Of a stretch of 64,000 nt of DNA, positions 7,342 to 22,316 are shown one piece after another. The notes under the pieces were generated by a model that saw nothing but the letters and a program-made list of their open reading frames with translations, was not told the origin of the DNA and did no database searches. The stretch's first letter is position 1. Every line of letters begins with the position of its first letter. The stretch comes from Candidatus Epulonipiscium sp. (lineage in GTDB: Bacteria; Bacillota; Clostridia; Lachnospirales; Defluviitaleaceae), in assembly GCA_012519205.1 (NCBI GenBank), contig JAAYQR010000007.1, forward strand, positions 62,001-126,000, in the 5' to 3' direction. Made by a program: the position numbers and the translations under genes.

Positions 7342-8462
7342 ATAAGAAAATAAGATTTGATAATCAATCTAATTGGCTGGATTATAATCTCCAGTTCTTT
7401 GCAGACAAAGATGGGAAAACAGAAAAAGCCACCCCTAGAAAACGTAGTAAAGCAAGGGAAGAAGGACAAGTAGCAAAAAGCATGGAAATAAACACTGCTT
7501 TTCTGCTTATTTTTATGTTTGCGGCAATAAGACTGTTTGCCCCATTCATGTATGGTAGACTAACTTCGATTTTTGAAAGAACATATATTCTCTATCCTAA
7601 ATTAGATGATTTATTTGTTGAATCATATATTTTGAAATTTGTTCCTTATATCTTAACACAAATTCTAATTATTATTGCTCCACTTTTTGCTGTTGCCATG
7701 ATAGTTGGTGTAACTGTAAATTTTGTTCAGGTGGGATGGCATCCTACCCTCAAGCCTCTAAAGCCCAAGTTTAGCAGATTAAACCCCATATCTGGAATGA
7801 GCCGATTGTTTTCAAAACATTCATTGGTGGAGTTGTTAAAATCAATTATTAAGATTACAATTGTTAGTCTTGTTATATACAACTCTGTTATTGGAGAAGT
7901 AAAAAACATCATTCTTTTGCTAGATATGGATTTAATGCAAATGATAAAATACATCGGAAAAGTTATTATAAATATAGGGTTAAAGGTAGGCATGTTTTTT
8001 CTATTTATTTCTGCAGCAGATTATGCATATCAAAGATTTGAACATGAGGAAAACTTAAAGATGACGAAAGAAGAAATAAAAGAAGAATATAAAATGACAG
8101 AAGGTAATCCTCAAATCAAGAGTAAAATCCGACAAAAAATGCGAGAAGCCTCCATGAGGAGGATGATGCAGGAAATACCTAAAGCCGATGTTGTCATTAC
8201 AAACCCGACCCACTATGCCATAGCGATACAATATGATTCAAATGTGGCTTCTGCCCCGATAGTTATTGCTAAGGGGGTAGATTATTTAGCAATGCGTATT
8301 AAAACCATTGCTGCAGAAAGTGAAATTGAGATTGTCGAAAATAAACCTCTTGCTAGAACCCTTTACCAAACGGTCGATATAGGTCAAGAAATTCCTCCTG
8401 ATTTATACCAGGCTGTTGCAGAGATTCTTGCATTTGTTTATAGCCTAAAGAACAACTACTAA
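7338..8462 (+). CDS. flhB: Flagellar export switch protein FlhB
   Basis: The 374-residue protein has a basic N-terminus with EKATPRKRSKAREEGQVAKS, four membrane helices, and a cytoplasmic domain. The autocleavage motif Asn289-Pro-Thr-His292 lies in VVITNPTHYAIA. Self-cleavage after this Asn switches export from rod/hook to filament substrates. FlhB is a separate gene here, not fused to FliR as in some clostridia. It overlaps fliR by 4 bases and is followed by flhA. Confidence 0.97.
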   Translation: MNKKIRFDNQSNWLDYNLQFFADKDGKTEKATPRKRSKAREEGQVAKSMEINTAFLLIFMFAAIRLFAPFMYGRLTSIFERTYILYPKLDDLFVESYILKFVPYILTQILIIIAPLFAVAMIVGVTVNFVQVGWHPTLKPLKPKFSRLNPISGMSRLFSKHSLVELLKSIIKITIVSLVIYNSVIGEVKNIILLLDMDLMQMIKYIGKVIINIGLKVGMFFLFISAADYAYQRFEHEENLKMTKEEIKEEYKMTEGNPQIKSKIRQKMREASMRRMMQEIPKADVVITNPTHYAIAIQYDSNVASAPIVIAKGVDYLAMRIKTIAAESEIEIVENKPLARTLYQTVDIGQEIPPDLYQAVAEILAFVYSLKNNY

Positions 8463-8497
8463 ATGAGCTTATTATAGTAGTGAAGGAGGATGGTTTT

Positions 8498-10543
8498 GTG
8501 AAATTTGGAGATGCATTTCTTGGAATATTTGTTATTGTTATTATTGTTATGATTATAATTCCGCTTCCACAATGGATGTTGGATACATTATTTACTTTAA
8601 ATATTGCTATTGCACTTATAATTTTATTAAATACACTATTCTCGAAAGAACCTCTCGACATGTCAATGTTTCCGACCATACTCTTAATTTCTACAATATT
8701 TAGGTTAGCTCTTAATGTATCCTCTACTAGATTAATATTAGGGGAAGGGGATGCAGGTTCAGTTGTGAGAGTTTTTGGAAGCTTTGTGGCCGGAGGAAAT
8801 ATTGTTCTTGGGGTAATAGTATTTATAATTATTATAGTGATACAGTTTTTGGTTATCACAAAGGGTGCAGAAAGGGTAGCTGAAGTATCGGCTCGTTTTA
8901 CATTAGATGCAATGCCGGGAAAACAAATGGCAATAGATGCTGACTTAAACACGGGCTTAATTGATGAGGCCGAAGCAAAGGCAAGAAGAAAAAAAATACA
9001 GGACGAAGCTGCCTTTTATGGGGCAATGGATGGTTCTAGTAAGTTTGTTAAAAACGATGCTATAGCAGGAATTATCATTACATTTATTAATATTATCGGT
9101 GGGCTTATTTTAGGTACTACAGGCATTACCACAGGAAAACCTCTTCCAGTAGCGGAAGCCTTCGAGATATATACTATTTTAACCATAGGAGATGGACTGG
9201 TAAGTCAGATTCCTGCCCTTCTTATTTCAACTGCCACAGGTATATTGGTAACGAAAACAGCTACAGAAACAAATATGAGCAGTGACTTATTAAAGCAGCT
9301 AGGAAGTACCCCAAGGGTATTGCAAATTACAGGGGGAACCTTAATACTTTTAGGAATTTTTACCCCTTTGCCTATTTTGATTTTTGTTCCAGTCGGTATG
9401 TTATTAATTTTAGGTGCAAGTACGATTGATAAAAATCTTAAGTTACAAACCATTAATGAAGAAATATCTACGGAAGACATAGAGGCTGAAGAAATAAGAA
9501 AGCCAGAAAATGTAGTTTCGCTTTTACAGGTTGATCCCATAGAATTAGAATTTGGGTATGGAATTATTCCCCTAGCGGATGTAAACCAAGGGGGAGACTT
9601 ATTAGATAGGGTGGTTATGATAAGACGACAAATCGCTTTGGAATTAGGAGCTGTTGTTCCTATTATCAGACTGCGAGACAATATTCAACTAAGTCCCAAT
9701 CAATATCTTATAAAGATTAAAGGGGTAGAAATATCCAAAGGTGAAATACTATTTGACCACTATATGGCAATGAATCCGGGATATGTGGAAGAGGAAATAG
9801 ATGGTATAGAAACATTGGAACCGGCCTTTGGGCTACCGGCACTTTGGATATCAGAAACCCAAAGGGAAAAAGCCGAAATGATGGGTTATACGGTCGTTGA
9901 CCCTCCTTCAATCATAGCAACCCATTTAACGGAGATTATAAAGAAGCATTTAGACGAATTACTCACCCGTCAAGATGTTCAAATCCTTATTAATAATGTA
10001 AAAGAAACGCATCCAGCCCTTATTGATGAATTGGTGCCAAAGGTCCTTGGTATAGGGGATATTCAAAAAGTATTATCCAATTTATTAAGGGAACATGTAT
10101 CCATAAGGGATTTAGTGACCATATTTGAAACTTTAGCTGATTATGGTCCTATAACCAGGGATATAGATTTATTAACAGAATATGTTCGTCAAAGCTTAGG
10201 AAGGGCAATTTCTAAAAGGTTCTTAGTTCAAAAAACTAACAATATTATCACCCTAGATCCTTCTCTAGAACAACAGATTATGGATGCTGTGCAACAATCC
10301 GAACAGGGGTCTTATTTGGCATTAGACCCGGAAACCACACAACAGATTTTTGAGAAATTAAGTCAGGAAATCCATAGATTTAATTCCATAGGACAGCAGC
10401 CAATTCTTTTAACATCGCCTATTGCAAGAATTTATTTTAAGAGATTAACTGAACAAATTGCACCGGATTTAATCGTACTATCCTATAATGAAATTGACCC
10501 AAGCATTGAGATACAATCAATTGGAATGGTTAGCATAGCATAA
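8498..10543 (+). CDS. flhA: Flagellar export apparatus protein FlhA
   Basis: The product is 681 residues from GTG 8498, placed 8 bases after AAGGAGG (8483-8489). An in-frame GTG at 8480 lies before that site and is less likely. The N-terminal half is a multi-spanning membrane domain with the FHIPEP signature region (AEVSARFTLDAMPGKQMAID). The C-terminal cytoplasmic domain (from about residue 345) is the substrate/chaperone platform. FlhA forms the nonameric ring of the export gate and couples export to the proton motive force. Confidence 0.97.
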   Translation: MKFGDAFLGIFVIVIIVMIIIPLPQWMLDTLFTLNIAIALIILLNTLFSKEPLDMSMFPTILLISTIFRLALNVSSTRLILGEGDAGSVVRVFGSFVAGGNIVLGVIVFIIIIVIQFLVITKGAERVAEVSARFTLDAMPGKQMAIDADLNTGLIDEAEAKARRKKIQDEAAFYGAMDGSSKFVKNDAIAGIIITFINIIGGLILGTTGITTGKPLPVAEAFEIYTILTIGDGLVSQIPALLISTATGILVTKTATETNMSSDLLKQLGSTPRVLQITGGTLILLGIFTPLPILIFVPVGMLLILGASTIDKNLKLQTINEEISTEDIEAEEIRKPENVVSLLQVDPIELEFGYGIIPLADVNQGGDLLDRVVMIRRQIALELGAVVPIIRLRDNIQLSPNQYLIKIKGVEISKGEILFDHYMAMNPGYVEEEIDGIETLEPAFGLPALWISETQREKAEMMGYTVVDPPSIIATHLTEIIKKHLDELLTRQDVQILINNVKETHPALIDELVPKVLGIGDIQKVLSNLLREHVSIRDLVTIFETLADYGPITRDIDLLTEYVRQSLGRAISKRFLVQKTNNIITLDPSLEQQIMDAVQQSEQGSYLALDPETTQQIFEKLSQEIHRFNSIGQQPILLTSPIARIYFKRLTEQIAPDLIVLSYNEIDPSIEIQSIGMVSIA

Positions 10544-10577
10544 GGGCTATAATAGTTGTGGAGGAATGATAATTGCC

Positions 10578-11789
10578 ATGAAGGTTAAAAAATATGAGGC
10601 TAAAACTGAACAGGAAGCAATAGAAAAAGTAAAAGATGACTTAGGTAAAGAGGCATTGATTTTAAATATAAAAAAGATAAATCCAAAAGGTATTTTTAAA
10701 CTGTTTAGACAACCTACGGTGGAAGTATTAGCAGCTCTAGACGGGCAACTAAATAAGACTAATGATTTCAAACAGCAAGAGAGCAATTTTAATAATATAG
10801 TAGAAGAGACCATAAGAAACATTAGTAATGGCAGCAAGCAATCTGAAAAAACCATAGTAGATGAACAAAAAGAAACAATAAAGGGCTTGGAGAGCAAATT
10901 AGATCACCTAGAAGGGCTTCTTACAAAGGTCATGGAAAGGGTAAGTACGGAAAATCAAATTCAGGCATCCTATACAAATGAAACATGTAGGAAATATAAT
11001 AGTACGATTTTGCAATTATTTTATGATAATCTCATTAAAAACGAAGTGATGCCCGAATTGGCAGAGACTATTTTAAAAGATTTAGATGAAATGGACGAAG
11101 AAACAAAAAACGATGTCAACAACCTCATCGCTATTGTTTACAATAGGATTATGGAAATAATGGGGAATCCAACCCAAATTGAAATGGATAATAAAAAACC
11201 TAAAATAGTTTTCTTTGTCGGACCCACAGGGGTTGGGAAGACGACAACTATCGCAAAAATAACCGCCCATTTTTCTTTGAATGAAAAGAAAAAAGTTGGC
11301 TTAATTACAGCAGACACATATAGGATAGCTGCGGTTGAACAGTTAAAAACCTATGCAGAAATACTAAACGTACCTGTTGAAGTGATATATTCTTCCGATG
11401 AATTATTAGAAACCCTTGAAAAAATAAAGGATGTTGATATTGTTTTTATAGATACAGCTGGAAGATCTCATAAAAATGCACAGCAATTTCAAGAATTAGA
11501 TAATTTGCTTTCTTTAGTAGATGAAAAACAAATATTTTTGGTGCTGAGTGCAACCACTAAGTATAAAGATATGTTAAATATTTTGAATCAATATTCTTCA
11601 ATCTCAGATTATGATATTATTTTTACTAAGGCTGATGAAACGACATCTCTCGGAACAATTCTAAATGTAAGATACCTAACGCAAAAATCCTTATCCTATA
11701 TAACATTTGGGCAAGATGTTCCGGATGATATAGAACTTATCAGTCCTAAAAAAATGACAAAAGCCTTATTAGGGAGTATGGATGAATGA
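10578..11789 (+). CDS. flhF: Flagellar SRP-type GTPase FlhF
   Basis: The product is 403 residues from ATG 10578 (MKVKKYEAKTEQEAIEKV), the typical FlhF beginning. GGAGGA at 10560-10565 lies 12 bases upstream, a long gap; the ATG at 10566 sits right on that site and is less likely. After a variable N-terminal region comes the SRP-type NG GTPase domain with GPTGVGKTTTIAKI near residue 215 and DTAGRSHKN. FlhF helps place the flagellum. It overlaps flhG by 4 bases. Confidence 0.95.
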   Translation: MKVKKYEAKTEQEAIEKVKDDLGKEALILNIKKINPKGIFKLFRQPTVEVLAALDGQLNKTNDFKQQESNFNNIVEETIRNISNGSKQSEKTIVDEQKETIKGLESKLDHLEGLLTKVMERVSTENQIQASYTNETCRKYNSTILQLFYDNLIKNEVMPELAETILKDLDEMDEETKNDVNNLIAIVYNRIMEIMGNPTQIEMDNKKPKIVFFVGPTGVGKTTTIAKITAHFSLNEKKKVGLITADTYRIAAVEQLKTYAEILNVPVEVIYSSDELLETLEKIKDVDIVFIDTAGRSHKNAQQFQELDNLLSLVDEKQIFLVLSATTKYKDMLNILNQYSSISDYDIIFTKADETTSLGTILNVRYLTQKSLSYITFGQDVPDDIELISPKKMTKALLGSMDE

Positions 11790-12670
11790 TGGACCAAGCA
11801 GAGAAACTAAGAAGAATTGTAAATAATCAACTAGAGCAGGCCATATCGGAGCCTAGAACTTCGCGAGTAATCACCGTTACAAGCGGAAAAGGCGGCGTCG
11901 GAAAGACGAATGTAACAGCCAATTTAGCTGTACAACTTCAAAGAGCAGGGAAAAAAGTTGTTATAATTGATGCTGATTTTGGCTTAGCAAACATAGAAGT
12001 AGTTTTGGGAATTGTACCTAGATCAAACCTTGGAGAAGTCATCCATGGAAAAAAAGTTATTACCGATATCATAACAGAGGGACCAATGAATATAAAATTC
12101 ATTTCAGGAGGTTCTGGGGTACAGGATTTGATACATCTAAATGAACATCAATTATCTTTTTTTATTAAAAATTTGAGTCTTCTTGATCAGATGGCAGATA
12201 TTATACTAATCGATACGGGGGCGGGACTAACAGATGCTGTCCTTAGCTTTTCTAAGGCGGCAGATGAAATCATCCTTGTTACCACCCCGGAGCCAACATC
12301 AGTCACCGATGCTTATGCATTGATAAAAACATTATGTAGCCAAAAAAATAATGCTACTCCCAATATAAAATTACTGGTTAATAGGGTAGATGATGAAGAA
12401 GAGGGCAGAGAAATATACTATAAGTTAAAGCAGGTATCAAAGAGGTTCCTAAATGTGGAAATCGATGATTTAGGATATATACCCTATGATAGGGCATTGG
12501 TAAAGTCAGTAAAGTTGCAAGAACCAGTTTCCATCAGTTTTCCAAAAAGTGATGTGAGCAAAGCCTTCGAGATAATTTCTAATAGGGTATTAGATACAGA
12601 ATATAAAGAAAAGAAAAATACAGGCCTTACACTGTTTGTAAAACGATTAATGAATATATTTGGTTCTTAA
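11786..12670 (+). CDS. flhG: Flagellar number regulator FlhG (MinD/ParA-type ATPase, YlxH)
   Basis: The 294-residue product begins with an N-terminal FlhF-activating helix containing QAEKLRRIVN and then a MinD-type deviant Walker A SGKGGVGKTNVTANLAVQL starting near residue 33. It also has the Walker B IIDADFGLANIEVVLG. FlhG stimulates FlhF GTPase and controls flagellar number or pattern. The start overlaps the flhF stop (ATGATGG at 11786; an ATG 3 bases later is equally possible). Confidence 0.95.
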   Translation: MMDQAEKLRRIVNNQLEQAISEPRTSRVITVTSGKGGVGKTNVTANLAVQLQRAGKKVVIIDADFGLANIEVVLGIVPRSNLGEVIHGKKVITDIITEGPMNIKFISGGSGVQDLIHLNEHQLSFFIKNLSLLDQMADIILIDTGAGLTDAVLSFSKAADEIILVTTPEPTSVTDAYALIKTLCSQKNNATPNIKLLVNRVDDEEEGREIYYKLKQVSKRFLNVEIDDLGYIPYDRALVKSVKLQEPVSISFPKSDVSKAFEIISNRVLDTEYKEKKNTGLTLFVKRLMNIFGS

Positions 12671-12692: not shown

Positions 12693-13337
12693 GTGAAAAA
12701 AATATTAACCCCAGGATTAAAGCTAGAAATAACAAATATAGAGACTAGAAATAAAAAAAAGGGTTATGGATATATTAGTCAAATTGAAGAATATGTAGAT
12801 GATAAGACATTAATAATAGGTACTCCTATTGTGGGAGGGCAAATTGTACCTTTAAGAGTTGGTAATCAATATGCTTTAATAATTTATTCAGATACGACCC
12901 TTTATCGTTGTAAAATTCTTATCAAAAATAGGCTTAAAAAGGGTTTAGTTGAAATGTTAAAGGTCGAAATCATAACCCAACTTGAAAAAATTCAAAGAAG
13001 AGAATTCTTCCGCTGTGAATGCATCATACCATTTAAATACAATATCAATGATTCTTGGGAAGAAAGCATTATTAAGGATATAAGCGGCGGAGGACTTCGA
13101 TTTATTACAAATGTAAAATTGCAAATATCGGAGTTGATTATATGCGATATTCCCTTAGATGGCCAAGAAATAAGTGCAAGGGGAAGATTAATCAGCAGAG
13201 AAGACTCCAACACTGAGACTTATAAGTATCAATATAGGGTTTCCTTTGAAGAACTTTCAAAGATTGAGCGGGAAAAAATAATCCAATACATCTTTTTACA
13301 ACAAAGAAAAAGGGTACAACAGCATAGAGGGTTGTGA
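12693..13337 (+). CDS. PilZ-domain flagellar brake protein (YcgR/DgrA-like)
   Basis: The 214-residue product starts at GTG 12693 behind AAGGAGG (12679-12685). The N-terminal half resembles the YcgR-type beta-barrel. The C-terminal half is a PilZ domain with both c-di-GMP-binding signatures, R103-E-F-F-R107 (RxxxR) and DISGGG (DxSxxG). Placed between flhG and cheB, it most likely slows or stops the motor when c-di-GMP is high, like YpfA/MotI of Bacillus. That role is inferred from the family and the location. Confidence 0.9.
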   Translation: MKKILTPGLKLEITNIETRNKKKGYGYISQIEEYVDDKTLIIGTPIVGGQIVPLRVGNQYALIIYSDTTLYRCKILIKNRLKKGLVEMLKVEIITQLEKIQRREFFRCECIIPFKYNINDSWEESIIKDISGGGLRFITNVKLQISELIICDIPLDGQEISARGRLISREDSNTETYKYQYRVSFEELSKIEREKIIQYIFLQQRKRVQQHRGL

Positions 13338-18183: not shown

Positions 18184-18444
18184 ATGGTTAAAAAGTTGGA
18201 TGTAATTCTTCCTTTAATATCGGCTATAATTATTGGAGGAATTAGTTTATTACAAAGGGATTCTTTGAACATTATGACTATTAAACTGATTGTTGTTATC
18301 ACTGTATTTTATATTTTTGGCTTGATGATAAGTACTGTACTACAAAGAATATATTCTAGCTCAAAAAGTAATTATAATAATACTCAAACGATGGAAGAAC
18401 CGATGAAAGAATCAAATGAGGATAGAAACGATACTATACAATAA
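18184..18444 (+). CDS. Small two-helix membrane protein of the che operon
   Basis: The 86-residue product has two membrane segments (about 8-24 and 30-54) and a hydrophilic tail rich in Ser, Asn and Glu. TAAGGAG lies 8 bases before the ATG (18171-18177). It sits between cheD and the flagellar sigma gene, where B. subtilis has no gene. I recognise no functional domain. Similar small membrane proteins occur at this place in other clostridial operons, from memory. A role near the flagellum is only a guess from position. Confidence 0.75.
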   Translation: MVKKLDVILPLISAIIIGGISLLQRDSLNIMTIKLIVVITVFYIFGLMISTVLQRIYSSSKSNYNNTQTMEEPMKESNEDRNDTIQ

Positions 18445-18482: not shown

Positions 18483-19250
18483 ATGATTGAAAGAGATCTC
18501 GAAGAACTATGGGAAAAATATAAACGGACCAACCTCTCATCTATAAAAGAAAAATTGATTATAGAATATGCCCCTTTGGTAAAATATGTTGCAGGAAGGC
18601 TTAATGTTTATCTAGGTCAAAATGTTGAGTATGAAGACCTCATTAGCTACGGGGTATTTGGGCTAATCGATGCAATCGATAAATTTGACCTAAAAAAAGG
18701 GGTAAAATTTGAAACCTACGCTTCCCTTAGGATTCGAGGAGCAATACTAGACAATATTAGAAAATTAGATTGGGTTCCTAGAACATTAAGACAAAAAAAC
18801 AAGCAAATAGAAAAGGCTTATGCAGAACTTGAAACGGAGCTAGGAAGAAGTGCGACAGACGAGGAAATGGCAGTGAAAATGGGGATAACTGTAGAAGAAT
18901 TACGGGAGATGTTAAAGCAAGTAAACCTTTTATCACTCATATCCCTAGAGGAGTATGTGGAACAAAACAATGAGCCATCTATGGGTTCTGTCAAGCAACC
19001 GGGCAATGAACAGCCAGAAGCCTATTTAGAAAAACAAGAACTTAAAAGAATACTTAAAGAATCTATTGAAAAACTTCCTGAAAGGGAACAGCGAGTTTTG
19101 ATACTTTATTACTTTGAAGAATTAACCCTAAAAGAAATCAGCTCTATTATGGGTGTTTCTGAATCAAGGATATCCCAACTTCACACAAAGGGCATCATGA
19201 GGTTAAAGGGTAAATTAGGAAAGTATAGAACAATCTTATTTGAATTATAA
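18483..19250 (+). CDS. sigD: Flagellar RNA polymerase sigma factor (FliA/SigD family)
   Basis: The 255-residue sigma-70 family protein has regions 2 (YEDLISYGVFGLIDAIDKFD and KFETYASLRIRGAILDNIRK), 3 and 4 (LPEREQRVLILYYFEELTLK and ISSIMGVSESRISQLHTKG). The WVPRTLRQK segment after region 2 is typical of FliA/SigD/WhiG. It should direct late flagellar and chemotaxis genes. It follows cheD and the small membrane protein, as in the Bacillus fla/che operon. CAGGAGGAA at 18470-18478 is the ribosome binding site. Confidence 0.96.
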   Translation: MIERDLEELWEKYKRTNLSSIKEKLIIEYAPLVKYVAGRLNVYLGQNVEYEDLISYGVFGLIDAIDKFDLKKGVKFETYASLRIRGAILDNIRKLDWVPRTLRQKNKQIEKAYAELETELGRSATDEEMAVKMGITVEELREMLKQVNLLSLISLEEYVEQNNEPSMGSVKQPGNEQPEAYLEKQELKRILKESIEKLPEREQRVLILYYFEELTLKEISSIMGVSESRISQLHTKGIMRLKGKLGKYRTILFEL

Positions 19251-19262
19251 AGGAGGGATAAA

Positions 19263-20906
19263 ATGAATAATACAGGAAATACTACGCCAAATGCAAGTAG
19301 CAATTATGATGGCTTCTTTGATTTCGAAATAAAAGACGATGGATTTTATCTTATTCTATACGCTCCAAAAGGGGAGGGGGAATTTCCCAAACTTGAAGAA
19401 ATCGTTAATAGACTAAATAACAAAAAGGTTATGGATTACGATTTAGAAATTATAAAAAAGTCAGTTAGGGATATCCATTCACAGGAAAAGTTGGAAGTTT
19501 TGATTTCCACTCAAACAAAGTTAAAGCCAATAGATGAAAAACTATATGTCGAAATTTCAAAAGACAAGATGTTTGCAGTTATATCATTTACTCCTCCAGA
19601 AAACGAAGGGAAAATCCTTTCCTATGATGATGTACTTCATAAAATTGAAGAAAATAAGGTGAATTTTGGAATAAACAAAGAGGAGCTTAAAAAAGCAGTC
19701 GAAGAGAAAAAAATAAACCATAAATATGTTATTGCTCAGGGATTAAAACCGGTTAATGGGCAAAACGCTAAACTAGATTTTCATTTCAATAAAAAAAGAG
19801 ACAATAAACCTAAGGTCTTGGAAGATGGAACCGTTGACTTTTATAATTTAGATTTAATTGAGAATGTAGTAAAAGGTCAAGATTTAGTTACACTAATACC
19901 TCCTGTAGAGGGAACTCCTGGTAGAAATGTCCTAGGGGTTGAAATCCCCTCAATCAAAGGGAAAAATATAAAACTTCCAAAGGGAAAAAACACAGAAATT
20001 TCAGAGGATGGCACGAAACTAGTAGCAACTACCGATGGACAGGTAAATTACACAAATGGAAAAGTAAACGTTTATGAAACCTATGAGGTTCCCGACAATG
20101 TCGATAATTCAGTAGGAAATATTAATTTTATAGGAAATGTGGTTGTAAGAGGAAATGTATTAACGGGTTTTTACATAAAGGCCGGAGGAAATGTTGAGGT
20201 ATACGGTGTTGTTGAAGGGGCAAAGATTGAAGCCCAAGGAGATATAATTTTACGTAGAGGAATTCAAGGAATGAGTAGGGGAATTTTAAGTTCCATGGGA
20301 AATGTAGTAGCCAAATACATCGAAAATAGTATTGTAGAAGCAGCAGGAGATATACAAAGCGATGCCATTATGCATAGTCAGATTAAATGCGGGGGGAGTA
20401 TTAGGGCAGATGGAAGAAAAGGCCTTATTGTCGGCGGTGTAATTAGGGCTGGAAGAGAAGTAGATGCCAAGGTCATAGGTTCTCATATGGCTACTGCGAC
20501 AGAAATAGAGGTAGGTATAGATCCGGCAATACTTGAAAGATACCGTTTTTTAAAAGATGAATTAAGTAATATAAAAAAAGAGATTATAAAAACTACACAA
20601 ATTGTAGACTTACTTAATAAAATGAAAGATGCTGATAAATTAACAGATTCAAAAAGAGATATGCTGATAAAATCCATACGTACGAAGGTATTTCTTGACA
20701 ATCGCCTAAAGAGTGTTAAAAATGAAATTGTGGAATTAGAGCCATTGCTAGAGGAAAAAGAAGACGGAAAGGTTAAGGCTTATAATATTATACATCCTGG
20801 AGTTAAAATAACCATTGGAACTGCTTGTATGTATGTAAGGGAAGAAATAAAGTTTTGTTCCTTATATAAAGACAAAGCAGATATTAGAACAAGCAGCTAT
20901 GATTAG
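19263..20906 (+). CDS. FapA family protein (DUF342, polymer-forming-like)
   Basis: The 547-residue product has a variable N-terminal part and a conserved FapA middle with PPVEGTPGRNVLG. It then has a repetitive glycine-rich beta-helix (about 275-415; NFIGNVVVRGNVLTGFYIK, GGNVEVYGVVEGAKIEAQG) and a C-terminal coiled coil (about 420-500). The helix resembles bactofilin-type polymerising domains. Such genes are common in Firmicutes flagellar operons, but their function is not established. The gene follows the sigma factor gene by 12 bases behind AAAGGAGGG. Confidence 0.88.
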   Translation: MNNTGNTTPNASSNYDGFFDFEIKDDGFYLILYAPKGEGEFPKLEEIVNRLNNKKVMDYDLEIIKKSVRDIHSQEKLEVLISTQTKLKPIDEKLYVEISKDKMFAVISFTPPENEGKILSYDDVLHKIEENKVNFGINKEELKKAVEEKKINHKYVIAQGLKPVNGQNAKLDFHFNKKRDNKPKVLEDGTVDFYNLDLIENVVKGQDLVTLIPPVEGTPGRNVLGVEIPSIKGKNIKLPKGKNTEISEDGTKLVATTDGQVNYTNGKVNVYETYEVPDNVDNSVGNINFIGNVVVRGNVLTGFYIKAGGNVEVYGVVEGAKIEAQGDIILRRGIQGMSRGILSSMGNVVAKYIENSIVEAAGDIQSDAIMHSQIKCGGSIRADGRKGLIVGGVIRAGREVDAKVIGSHMATATEIEVGIDPAILERYRFLKDELSNIKKEIIKTTQIVDLLNKMKDADKLTDSKRDMLIKSIRTKVFLDNRLKSVKNEIVELEPLLEEKEDGKVKAYNIIHPGVKITIGTACMYVREEIKFCSLYKDKADIRTSSYD

Positions 20907-20923
20907 GGAAAAGGGGGGGGAGT

Positions 20924-21226
20924 ATGATTCGTCCTATAGATATGCAAGTTATCATTCCTAAGACATCCGAAATATCTAGGCAGCACCATGGAGAGGCTCA
21001 AAAGGGAGAAGTTGAACAGCATCAATTTGCCCAGCAGATGGAAAAACAGGTGTATCAAAACCAGCAACAGGTAGTAAGCTCTAACAAGCCAGAAAGCACA
21101 GTAAATCAGGATGGACGTAACAAAAGCCAATACCAAAAGAATCATTCAAAAAAACAAAAGAATAAAAACCAAAAGGATAAAAAAGAGGATTCAACAAAAA
21201 GTAGTATTATAGACATTAGAATTTGA
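20924..21226 (+). CDS. Small Gln/Lys-rich protein of the flagellar operon tail
   Basis: The 100-residue protein begins MIRPIDMQVIIPKTSEISRQ and is otherwise very hydrophilic: a Gln-rich middle and a Lys/Asn/Gln-rich C-terminus that is probably disordered. It has no membrane segment or signal peptide. The ribosome binding site is a G-rich run (GGGGGGGGAG, 20913-20922). The short N-terminal IDMQVxIPKTxEISR-like patch is the part I would expect to be conserved. No function is known to me. Confidence 0.7.
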   Translation: MIRPIDMQVIIPKTSEISRQHHGEAQKGEVEQHQFAQQMEKQVYQNQQQVVSSNKPESTVNQDGRNKSQYQKNHSKKQKNKNQKDKKEDSTKSSIIDIRI

Positions 21227-21240
21227 TTGAGGTGTAGGGT

Positions 21241-21735
21241 ATGCCACATAGTGAAATTATGAATACAATGATTTTTTTCCTTATAGCCGTGGGGATTATT
21301 ATATTAATCATAGGCTTAATCTTTATGAAGGATAAAACAAGCAATGCTTCTAATAAGTCCTTTGATAAACAGATAGAAATGGACAATATGTTAAAAACAC
21401 GAATAGATGAGGCAGATAAGATGCTGCAAGAATTAAGCCAATTATCTTCTTATATCAAATCCGAATTGGAGAAAAAACATAAGGAATTATTGTTCTTGTA
21501 TCAAATGATTGATGAAAAGAAGGCTTCTTCCTTGAAGAAAACAATAAATAATGAAGAATCGGTTCCTAAGAATGATGAGGAAGACTTAAAAGCATCGGTA
21601 TTCCTAAACAATAAAAATTACAATAAGATCATTGAGCTATATAAAATGGGTAAGGATACATCTACCATAGCTAGACAATTAAAAATAGGCAAAGGTGAAG
21701 TAGAATTGATTTTAGGGCTTGCAAAAATGGGGTGA
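21241..21735 (+). CDS. SwrB-like membrane-anchored protein (DUF6115-type)
   Basis: The 164-residue product has one N-terminal membrane helix (about 8-28), a coiled coil (about 38-85), and a C-terminal helix-turn-helix-like patch (IIELYKMGKDTSTIARQLKI then GKGEVELIL). This architecture, its length and its place just after the sigma gene match SwrB (YlxL) of B. subtilis. SwrB promotes flagellar type III secretion and motor assembly. The assignment rests on architecture and context, as sequence identity cannot be measured here. The stop overlaps the start region of the next gene. Confidence 0.75.
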   Translation: MPHSEIMNTMIFFLIAVGIIILIIGLIFMKDKTSNASNKSFDKQIEMDNMLKTRIDEADKMLQELSQLSSYIKSELEKKHKELLFLYQMIDEKKASSLKKTINNEESVPKNDEEDLKASVFLNNKNYNKIIELYKMGKDTSTIARQLKIGKGEVELILGLAKMG

Positions 21736-21740
21736 GTATA

Positions 21741-22226
21741 TTGGATTTATCGGCTAAGAGTTTAATAATAGGTTTAGGATTAGGGATTATTTTAACTGCT
21801 ACTTTTCTTATATTTATCCCCAAGGAATCCTTAACTAATGAAGATATTATCGAAAGGGCTAAAGACTTAGGCATGCTTGATCCATTGGACTTGGCACCAG
21901 AAAAGTTTGTTCTATCAGAGGAAGAAATTATAAGTAGAGCTAGAAGAATAGGGATGATATTTAAAACGGAAAATACCAATTACCTAGAGCAAGAAGATGT
22001 GAAACCCGACGGGGATGAAGAAGAAATAGTTACTATTTTTATTCCAAGGGGGCTTAAATCAAAAGATATAAGCATTATATTGTTTGAAAATCATTTAATT
22101 GATGATGCAGAAGAATTTGATTTATATCTTAGAAAAGTTAATGTAGACAGGGTTATAGGTGATGGATATTTTAATATTTCCAAGGGAAGTAATTATGAAA
22201 AGATAACTAAAACCCTAATAGAATAA
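21741..22226 (+). CDS. Membrane-anchored protein with MltG-type LysM-like N-domain only
   Basis: The product is 161 residues from TTG 21741, preferred because GGGGTGAG lies at 21729-21736; a GTG at 21732 is the alternative. It has one membrane helix (about 7-25) and an acidic linker. The C-terminal module (TIFIPRGLKSKDISIILFEN ... GDGYFNISKGSNYEKITKTL) resembles the LysM-like domain at the start of MltG/YceG endolytic transglycosylases. The catalytic lytic domain is missing, so it is unlikely to cut peptidoglycan itself. It is the last gene of the flagellar operon. Confidence 0.7.
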   Translation: MDLSAKSLIIGLGLGIILTATFLIFIPKESLTNEDIIERAKDLGMLDPLDLAPEKFVLSEEEIISRARRIGMIFKTENTNYLEQEDVKPDGDEEEIVTIFIPRGLKSKDISIILFENHLIDDAEEFDLYLRKVNVDRVIGDGYFNISKGSNYEKITKTLIE

Positions 22227-22227
22227 T

Positions 22228-22264
22228 AAAACCACAATTTGATTGTATTATAAATTGTGGTTTT
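22228..22264 (+). terminator. Terminator of the flagellar/chemotaxis operon
   Basis: AAAACCACAATTT (22228-22240) pairs perfectly with AAATTGTGGTTTT (22252-22264) around an 11-base loop, with TTTTATTATT at the end. It follows the last flagellar-operon stop codon by 1 base and precedes the rpsB promoter. Confidence 0.9.
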
Positions 22265-22316
22265 ATTATTAATAGTTTTTATATAGAGGGAAAATTTTAA
22301 TAATAATAATTAAATA

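Follow-up and report, generated by a model that had tools for sequence, protein, structure and literature searches.

Within the 64,000-nucleotide (nt) stretch of contig JAAYQR010000007.1 from Candidatus Epulonipiscium sp. analysed here (the window), the flagellar sigma factor gene sigD is followed by four open reading frames (ORFs). They encode a FapA/DUF342 protein, a small Gln/Lys-rich protein (the Gln protein), a SwrB/FipA-like protein and a protein carrying the N-terminal domain of MltG (the MltG-N protein). As shown in Table 1, all four ORFs are real, and the successive gaps from sigD onward are 12, 17, 14 and −4 nt. The run is closed by a hairpin: folding of positions 22220-22275 gave −20 kcal/mol (z −5.98), and 0 of 200 shuffles folded equally well, while the same hairpin was absent from the terminator-scan output. 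It sets the four genes apart from rpsB-tsf-pyrH-frr-uppS (names by reading). An earlier note, made from the sequence alone, had described the genes as tightly spaced and ending at a terminator, and both points were borne out. The genome is 2.13 Mb in size and 98.75% complete.

Table 1. Features of the four-gene run and of the preceding part of the flagellar operon, in window positions.
Feature	Position	Strand	Description and basis
fapA	19263..20906	+	FapA/DUF342 protein: FapA_N + beta-solenoid domain, 547 amino acids (aa); Pfam
Gln/Lys-rich protein ("IDIRI-tail protein")	20924..21226	+	100 aa, unnamed family
IDIRI-COOH C-terminal motif of Gln protein	21209..21223	+	family alignment
SwrB/FipA-like protein, DUF6115	21241..21735	+	164 aa: N-terminal transmembrane (TM) helix, long helix, C-terminal helix-turn-helix (HTH)
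FipA-type signature G137-x15-E153-x2-L156	21649..21708	+	spacing identical to VpFipA G110/E126/L129
MltG-N protein	21732..22226	+	164 aa, GTG start, 4-nt overlap with swrB-like gene
SLTNEDIIERAKDLGM linker directly after TM helix of MltG-N protein	21828..21875	+	alignments; within core retained by short forms
MltG N-domain, residues 96-164 of MltG-N protein	22017..22223	+	match to 4iiw
Hairpin terminator closing the run	22222..22270	+	folding
sigD (sigma-28, FliA/WhiG family)	18483..19250	+	profile matches
FlgV-like 2-TM protein, cheD/sigD interval	18184..18444	+	86 aa; alignments; position as in PMC11607428
flhF, proposed partner of SwrB/FipA-like protein	10566..11789	+	SRP54 GTPase domain, 159 bits; precedes flhG
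flhG	11786..12670	+	ParA/MinD-type domain

Conservation was surveyed in an evenly drawn sample of 148 genomes of the class, 59 with FlhA and 89 without. The flagellar region was inspected in the 59 FlhA-positive genomes plus genome G080 (60 in all), where sigD was called in 58, swrB in 52, fapA in 45, the Gln gene in 43, the MltG-N gene in 40 and flgV in 33, counts that are depressed by contig ends. fapA, the Gln gene and swrB were all present in 42 of the 60, including G027 (no sigD, the contig beginning at fapA) and G009 (split over two contigs); 30 of these 42 also had the MltG-N gene and 31 had flgV. swrB was uncalled in eight genomes, some with short contigs, and occurred without a called Gln gene in ten. 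Nine of the ten have a reduced form, sigD-swrB-short MltG-N; the tenth, G094, has at the Gln position an ORF ending FDLRI that the profile missed.

The reduced form was recorded at nine loci (L102, L112, L122, L123, L128, L136, L138, L140 and L141), with an MltG-N core of 48-86 aa and with no fapA, Gln gene or flgV called in the locus. At L122, L138 and L141 it is followed by a rod/hook-type FlgF/FlgG-like gene (by reading). At L239 a transposase-like ORF of 581 aa (8403-10148, by reading) splits the Gln gene from swrB.

The Gln protein, DUF6115 and FapA were found almost entirely in genomes with FlhA. Counts for class genomes with and without FlhA were 42 and one for the Gln protein (Fisher p 6e-22), 45 and one for DUF6115 over the cut-off (p 2e-24), and 52 and one for FapA over the cut-off (p 5e-31; the 53 include a 31.3-bit match in G056); these p values are overstated because the sampled species are related. 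DUF6115 at any E ≤ 0.001 was found in 48 genomes with FlhA and six without. A hand tally by family label (62 labels, inferred from numbering) placed the Gln protein in 18 of the 26 families having an FlhA-positive genome and in 0 of the 36 others. Among 299 genomes sampled from the phylum, 133 had the Gln protein, comprising 131/246 with FlhA and 2/53 others; the protein is thus undetectable in nearly half of the flagellated genomes. In the two FlhA-negative genomes, G179 and G308, sigD adjoins the Gln gene on contigs of 4.1 and 3.6 kb. In FlhA-negative G080, cheD-flgV-sigD-fapA-Gln-swrB lie on a 12-kb contig that starts near the expected place of flhA, and FlgM is encoded on another contig. 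For all three, assembly breaks seem likelier than a true absence of FlhA.

Within the same family, sigD-fapA-Gln-swrB was kept in 6/7 other genomes (in G004 from fapA onward, the contig being cut). The DUF6115 search, the sole search made in family genome G002, returned no such locus there, and none of the three genus-g2 genomes having the locus yielded an MltG-N gene. A further set of named loci consisted of the best 80 of at least 348 confirmed FapA relatives in a profile search of genome contigs. Calls in these 80 numbered 78 for the Gln gene, 78 for swrB, 76 for sigD, 74 for cheD, 68 for the MltG-N gene, 61 for flgV and 40 for rpsB; the set is biased towards this block because it was selected on FapA, and it partly overlaps the class sample. 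Of the two loci without a Gln call, one stops within fapA at the contig end (L169) and the other has the gene with unknown bases inside (L204). The closest named FapA loci among the matches listed belong to Candidatus Epulonipiscium metagenome-assembled genomes (68%) and Defluviitalea phaphyphila (66%). The order cheD-flgV-sigD-fapA-Gln-swrB-MltG-N was retained over class and named loci. fapA, the Gln gene and the swrB-like gene, usually with the MltG-N gene, thus make up an accessory block that is conserved in the flagellar operon beside sigD and, in many lineages, also beside flgV.

The identities proposed in the earlier note were upheld by Pfam domains over cut-off for FapA and the SwrB-like protein, and by family matches and structure for the MltG-N protein. 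FapA of the window scored 253.2 bits with Pfam FapA (cut-off 31) and 177.6 bits with FapA_N (cut-off 27). A second full FapA paralogue of 532 aa is encoded in the same genome outside the flagellar-operon contig (contig C27, L027 7280-8878), and multiple FapA proteins are likewise encoded by several genomes of the class.

The SwrB/FipA-like protein matched DUF6115 with 59.6 bits (cut-off 27), as did 37/37 family members at E ≤ 0.01; 25/37 matched DUF2802 at the same E. Its AlphaFold model is a single long helix (residues 2-103) followed by a C-terminal three-helix HTH. The layout is that of a TM helix, a coiled region and a cytoplasmic domain, K+R being more frequent after than before the TM helix in 144/147 sequences. 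The signature G-x15-E-x2-L (G137, E153, L156) occurs in 130/153 SwrB-like relatives, against 0/149 FapA, 4/170 SigD, 0/140 CheD, 0/92 FlgV and 1/114 MltG-N sequences; in the 37-row alignment E and L are invariant and G is at least 90% conserved. The likeness to FipA is thus an alignment by spacing plus DUF2802 matches rather than a direct alignment to FipA. According to passages of PMC11620751, G110, E126 and L129 of FipA are 100% conserved, and G110A and L129A of VpFipA abolish FlhF binding. Matches of the HTH to Pax, resolvase and terminase HTH folds (Z about 7-8) lie in a commonplace range and were not used as evidence of DNA binding.

The YceG match of the MltG-N protein (19.1 bits) is under the cut-off of 32.4 and ends at profile position 61/275, and the assignment to YceG/MltG holds despite this score because the family (27/30 members at E ≤ 0.01) and the structure support it. 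Residues 96-164 of the model superimpose on 4iiw (Listeria lmo1499) with Z 12.8 and 0.8 Å over 68 residues at 31% identity; the next MltG structure was 8yoa (Z 8.9), and the injectisome structure 6pem, matched with Z 2.3, was disregarded. The model has an N-terminal helix at residues 4-28 and the LysM-like N-domain downstream, and the catalytic transglycosylase domain is absent. The gap from swrB to this gene has a median of 3 nt, and 48/114 distinct pairs overlap. Twenty-five of the 114 distinct copies are ≤110 aa; one runs off its contig (L109), one carries the domain in frame (L244), and for the other 23 none of the frames over the following 700 nt encodes an MltG domain. Frameshifted long forms were therefore rejected as the origin of the short forms. 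Since the short forms lack the N-domain, the TM helix and the EIIxRAxxLGM linker make up the core. A search of genome contigs with the MltG-N protein as query gave no match. In G048, where FlhA had no hit, a 165-aa ORF (L082 1267-1764) matches the section of the profile that covers the MltG N-domain, so proteins of the MltG-N-only type also occur outside flagellar operons. Genome G148 encodes a stand-alone MltG-N protein with the linker EKAKELGM (L073 1489-1938) on a different contig from its flagellar locus, in which no MltG-N copy was called. The earlier note had tied its interpretation to co-conservation in flagellated Clostridia and absence from non-flagellated relatives; this held for fapA, the Gln gene and swrB, and more weakly for the MltG-N gene, with 40/60 calls, 23/114 copies without the MltG domain and stand-alone YceG-N proteins away from flagellar genes.

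The Gln protein belongs to an unnamed family found across the phylum. It gave no convincing family in Pfam, NCBIfam or PDB, with stray single or double matches in Pfam and NCBIfam and none in PDB, and membership of a family known to these databases was rejected accordingly. The YjfB family of Pfam matched none of 37 members at E ≤ 0.01. Its composition suggests that the protein is probably disordered. The family N-terminus is about MSIRPxDMQVxIPKxxE, and 149/150 distinct sequences end in [IVLF]D[IVLFM]x[ILVAM]-COOH. The lone exception, L223, is likely due to sequence errors, as its sigD and fapA frames are split. When the profile was trained without the last 20 residues, the named loci selected on FapA yielded 78 ORFs, of which 77 had the motif, and the phylum loci yielded 39, all with it (116/117 in total), although 16 of the 78 were identical to a training sequence and the 39 loci had been picked with the full profile. 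The motif is thus unlikely to be a profile artefact; it occurs in 7/8177 other mechanical ORFs of at least 60 aa. The 39 phylum loci were drawn from the 133 Gln-positive genomes of the phylum. All 39 have sigD upstream within 2.6 kb, with or without fapA intervening; fapA was called in 32, swrB in 32 by best label and in 33 before that assignment, the MltG-N gene in 15 and flgV in 4.

Upstream of the block the order is motA motB fliL fliM fliY cheY-like fliO fliP ... fliR flhB flhA flhF flhG PilZ/YcgR cheB cheA cheW cheC cheD, an 86-aa 2-TM ORF and sigD (cheA and cheW named by reading), so that flhF and flhG share the operon with the SwrB/FipA-like gene. The PilZ/YcgR-type gene lies at 12693-13337, in the flhG/cheB interval. 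The 86-aa ORF has the two TM helices (by reading), the polar tail and the position between flhF/flhG and sigma28 of FlgV type 1, and has S in place of the TM2 arginine of the aligned consensus FYxxGxxxR. It is FlgV-like and part of the same conserved block, a point absent from the earlier note.

A motif similar to that of the Gln C-terminus recurs inside some of the clostridial FlgV tails in these loci. A looser pattern was found in 43/90 tails (shuffled 4.6, sd 2.0, highest 10), in 11/153 SwrB and in 9/114 MltG-N sequences. A position-specific scoring matrix built from Gln-protein C-termini scored ≥10 internally in 20/90 FlgV tails against 0.3 shuffled, and in 3/153 SwrB, 0/114 MltG-N, 2/149 FapA, 0/170 SigD and 1/140 CheD sequences; at score 6 it picked up 30/149 FapA, though FapA is much longer. 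With one sequence per 50% cluster, 14.4/62 FlgV tails reached the threshold against a null of 0.2 (highest null 2 in 200 rounds).

The unit is real, flagellar and partly described; from here on we infer. Our best explanation of the whole, held tentatively and with rather less than even confidence, is that the block helps to start and place basal bodies. The membrane-anchored SwrB/FipA-like protein would bind the GTPase FlhF through its HTH-like domain, which would not act as a DNA binder, and together they would license the nascent basal body or export gate. The MltG-N protein, whose gene is adjacent and often overlapping, may be its close membrane partner, and the N-domain, where present, would lie outside the membrane and tether the site to peptidoglycan without cutting. 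This split of labour would resemble that of FipA and the LysM-bearing HubP of gamma-proteobacteria. The Gln protein could be a cytoplasmic adaptor that docks by the beta-strand-like IDI[RK]I peptide at its C-terminus, perhaps at a site common to the FlgV tail, and FapA a putative beta-solenoid scaffold. For the MltG-N protein, a precedent is provided by FliO variants that carry LysM or AMIN domains on the extracytoplasmic side (passages of PMC12403147). The support of basal-body assembly that the earlier note suggested is plausible by analogy with the literature on SwrB and FipA, and its label of a membrane/cell-wall module would derive solely from the MltG N-domain. A more specific proposal seems unlikely in its full form: the Gln family would be new and phylum-wide, its [GS]xxIDI[RK][IVL] peptide would share a docking site on the basal body with the FlgV tail, the two competing or handing over, and a FipA/SwrB-type protein with its wall-facing partner would be a Gram-positive landmark for FlhF.

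Several points weigh against this explanation. Its interactions and phenotypes are predictions from sequence. DUF2802 scored 26.2 bits in the window protein, under the cut-off of 33.5. The E126A substitution leaves FlhF binding of VpFipA unaffected according to passages of PMC11620751, and the E of the signature therefore says little. Passages of PMC12153297 report that basal-body mobility in B. subtilis is raised by loss of SwrB and not of FlhF, a result that counts against a simple SwrB-FlhF pathway in that species. With 23/114 copies lacking the MltG domain, wall binding cannot be the universal job of the MltG-N protein, and its N-in topology by charge is weak (56 vs 30, 21 ties). The Gln gene adjoins sigD also where fapA (7/39) or swrB (7/39, one at a contig end) was uncalled, so that its product need not be partnered by either neighbour. 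The window's own FlgV-like protein has no such motif in its tail, and the majority of FlgV tails score <10.

Among the alternatives, it is possible but rather unlikely that the SwrB-like protein has the role of B. subtilis SwrB, activating the type III export gate of the flagellum (FliP) and not working via FlhF, with its neighbours as separate helpers. The position between sigD and rpsB is also that of swrB in B. subtilis. The DUF6115 profile also matches in the B. subtilis genome, a match recorded without its gene or its standing against the cut-off, and passages of PMC4526659 describe hook secretion as activated by SwrB via FliF/FliP. However, the same passages have SwrB conserved only in Bacillus, and the conserved part of the SwrB-like family is the C-terminal domain bearing the FipA signature. 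Shared regulation alone, in an ancient operon of four proteins with unrelated jobs, is improbable: the same order is repeatedly retained over families of class and phylum, the swrB/MltG-N spacing is tight and the Gln protein and FlgV have a motif in common, although each of the four genes is missing in some genomes and nine loci have the reduced form.

As sigD is the one constant neighbour of the Gln gene, the Gln protein might be a partner of sigma-28, acting as helper, brake or export escort. FlgM is small and disordered. The Gln protein is likewise small and probably disordered, and sigD was upstream in 39/39 phylum loci, which were selected for the Gln protein. We consider this quite improbable: FlgM is present in 41/43 Gln-protein genomes of the class sample, which rejects a FlgM substitute, and the similar motif sits in FlgV, a basal-body protein. 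Still less credence is given to the MltG-N protein as a regulator or recruiter of peptidoglycan cutting that opens a pore for the rod. Its non-catalytic transglycosylase domain would suit such a role, yet the protein has no catalytic domain and domain-less short forms hold the same place (23/114 distinct copies).

The earlier note had held that the genes were not described as a unit. Its identities, operon tail and co-conservation stand, but this statement does not: Zamba-Campero et al. 2024 (PMC11607428) name a submodule adjoining FlgV that consists of sigma28, FapA, YjfB and a TM+HTH protein, and the block is thus partly described already. Open-licence literature, searched by words rather than by sequence, contained no paper that dealt with the Gln protein, the MltG-N partner or the FlgV motif. 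Passages of PMC12826062 call flagellar siting beyond the monotrichous pattern unclear, and those of PMC12153297 say the same of the way in which flagella of B. subtilis get through the wall with no dedicated lyase. The block offers candidates in many flagellated Clostridia, namely a FipA-like possible partner of FlhF and a neighbouring membrane protein that bears a domain of a wall enzyme. The unnamed Gln family with its five-residue tail is a further candidate, amenable to small deletions. SwrB and FipA would be joined, a connection that the main-text passages of their papers do not draw; "SwrB" occurs three times in the FipA record outside the main text (PMC11620751).

Compared with known systems, FapA has both Pfam domains of FapA/DUF342 proteins, and no difference was found. 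The FlgV-sigma28 submodule likewise unites sigma28, FapA, a TM+HTH protein and FlgV within a single flagellar superoperon, also in Firmicutes; its text passages name YjfB, a label that may cover the Gln protein, name no Gln-rich or MltG-N protein and do not mention the motif shared by FlgV and the Gln protein (PMC11607428). The SwrB/FipA-like protein resembles SwrB of Bacillus subtilis as a single-pass protein with a cytoplasmic domain (PMC4526659), and is set apart by the Bacillus-only distribution noted above. With FipA (DUF2802) of gamma-proteobacteria, as described in passages of PMC11620751, it shares the N-terminal TM helix, the coiled region, the C-terminal domain with G-x15-E-x2-L and a gene near flhF, flhG and fliA; it differs in having DUF6115 as best family, a score under the DUF2802 cut-off, a Gram-positive lineage and a predicted partnership with FlhF. 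MltG carries a TM helix. The MltG-N protein has this helix and the N-terminal LysM-like domain of MltG/YceG, but it lacks the catalytic domain, has the extra EIIxRAxxLGM linker and occurs in short forms without the N-domain. No homology is claimed to HubP/FimV, whose LysM domain is described in PMC12918733, and the MltG-N protein is without the TPR/FimV domain or long acidic cytoplasmic region; what the two would have in common is the concept of a TM protein that bears a LysM-like domain on its extracytoplasmic side and, together with FipA, acts on FlhF.

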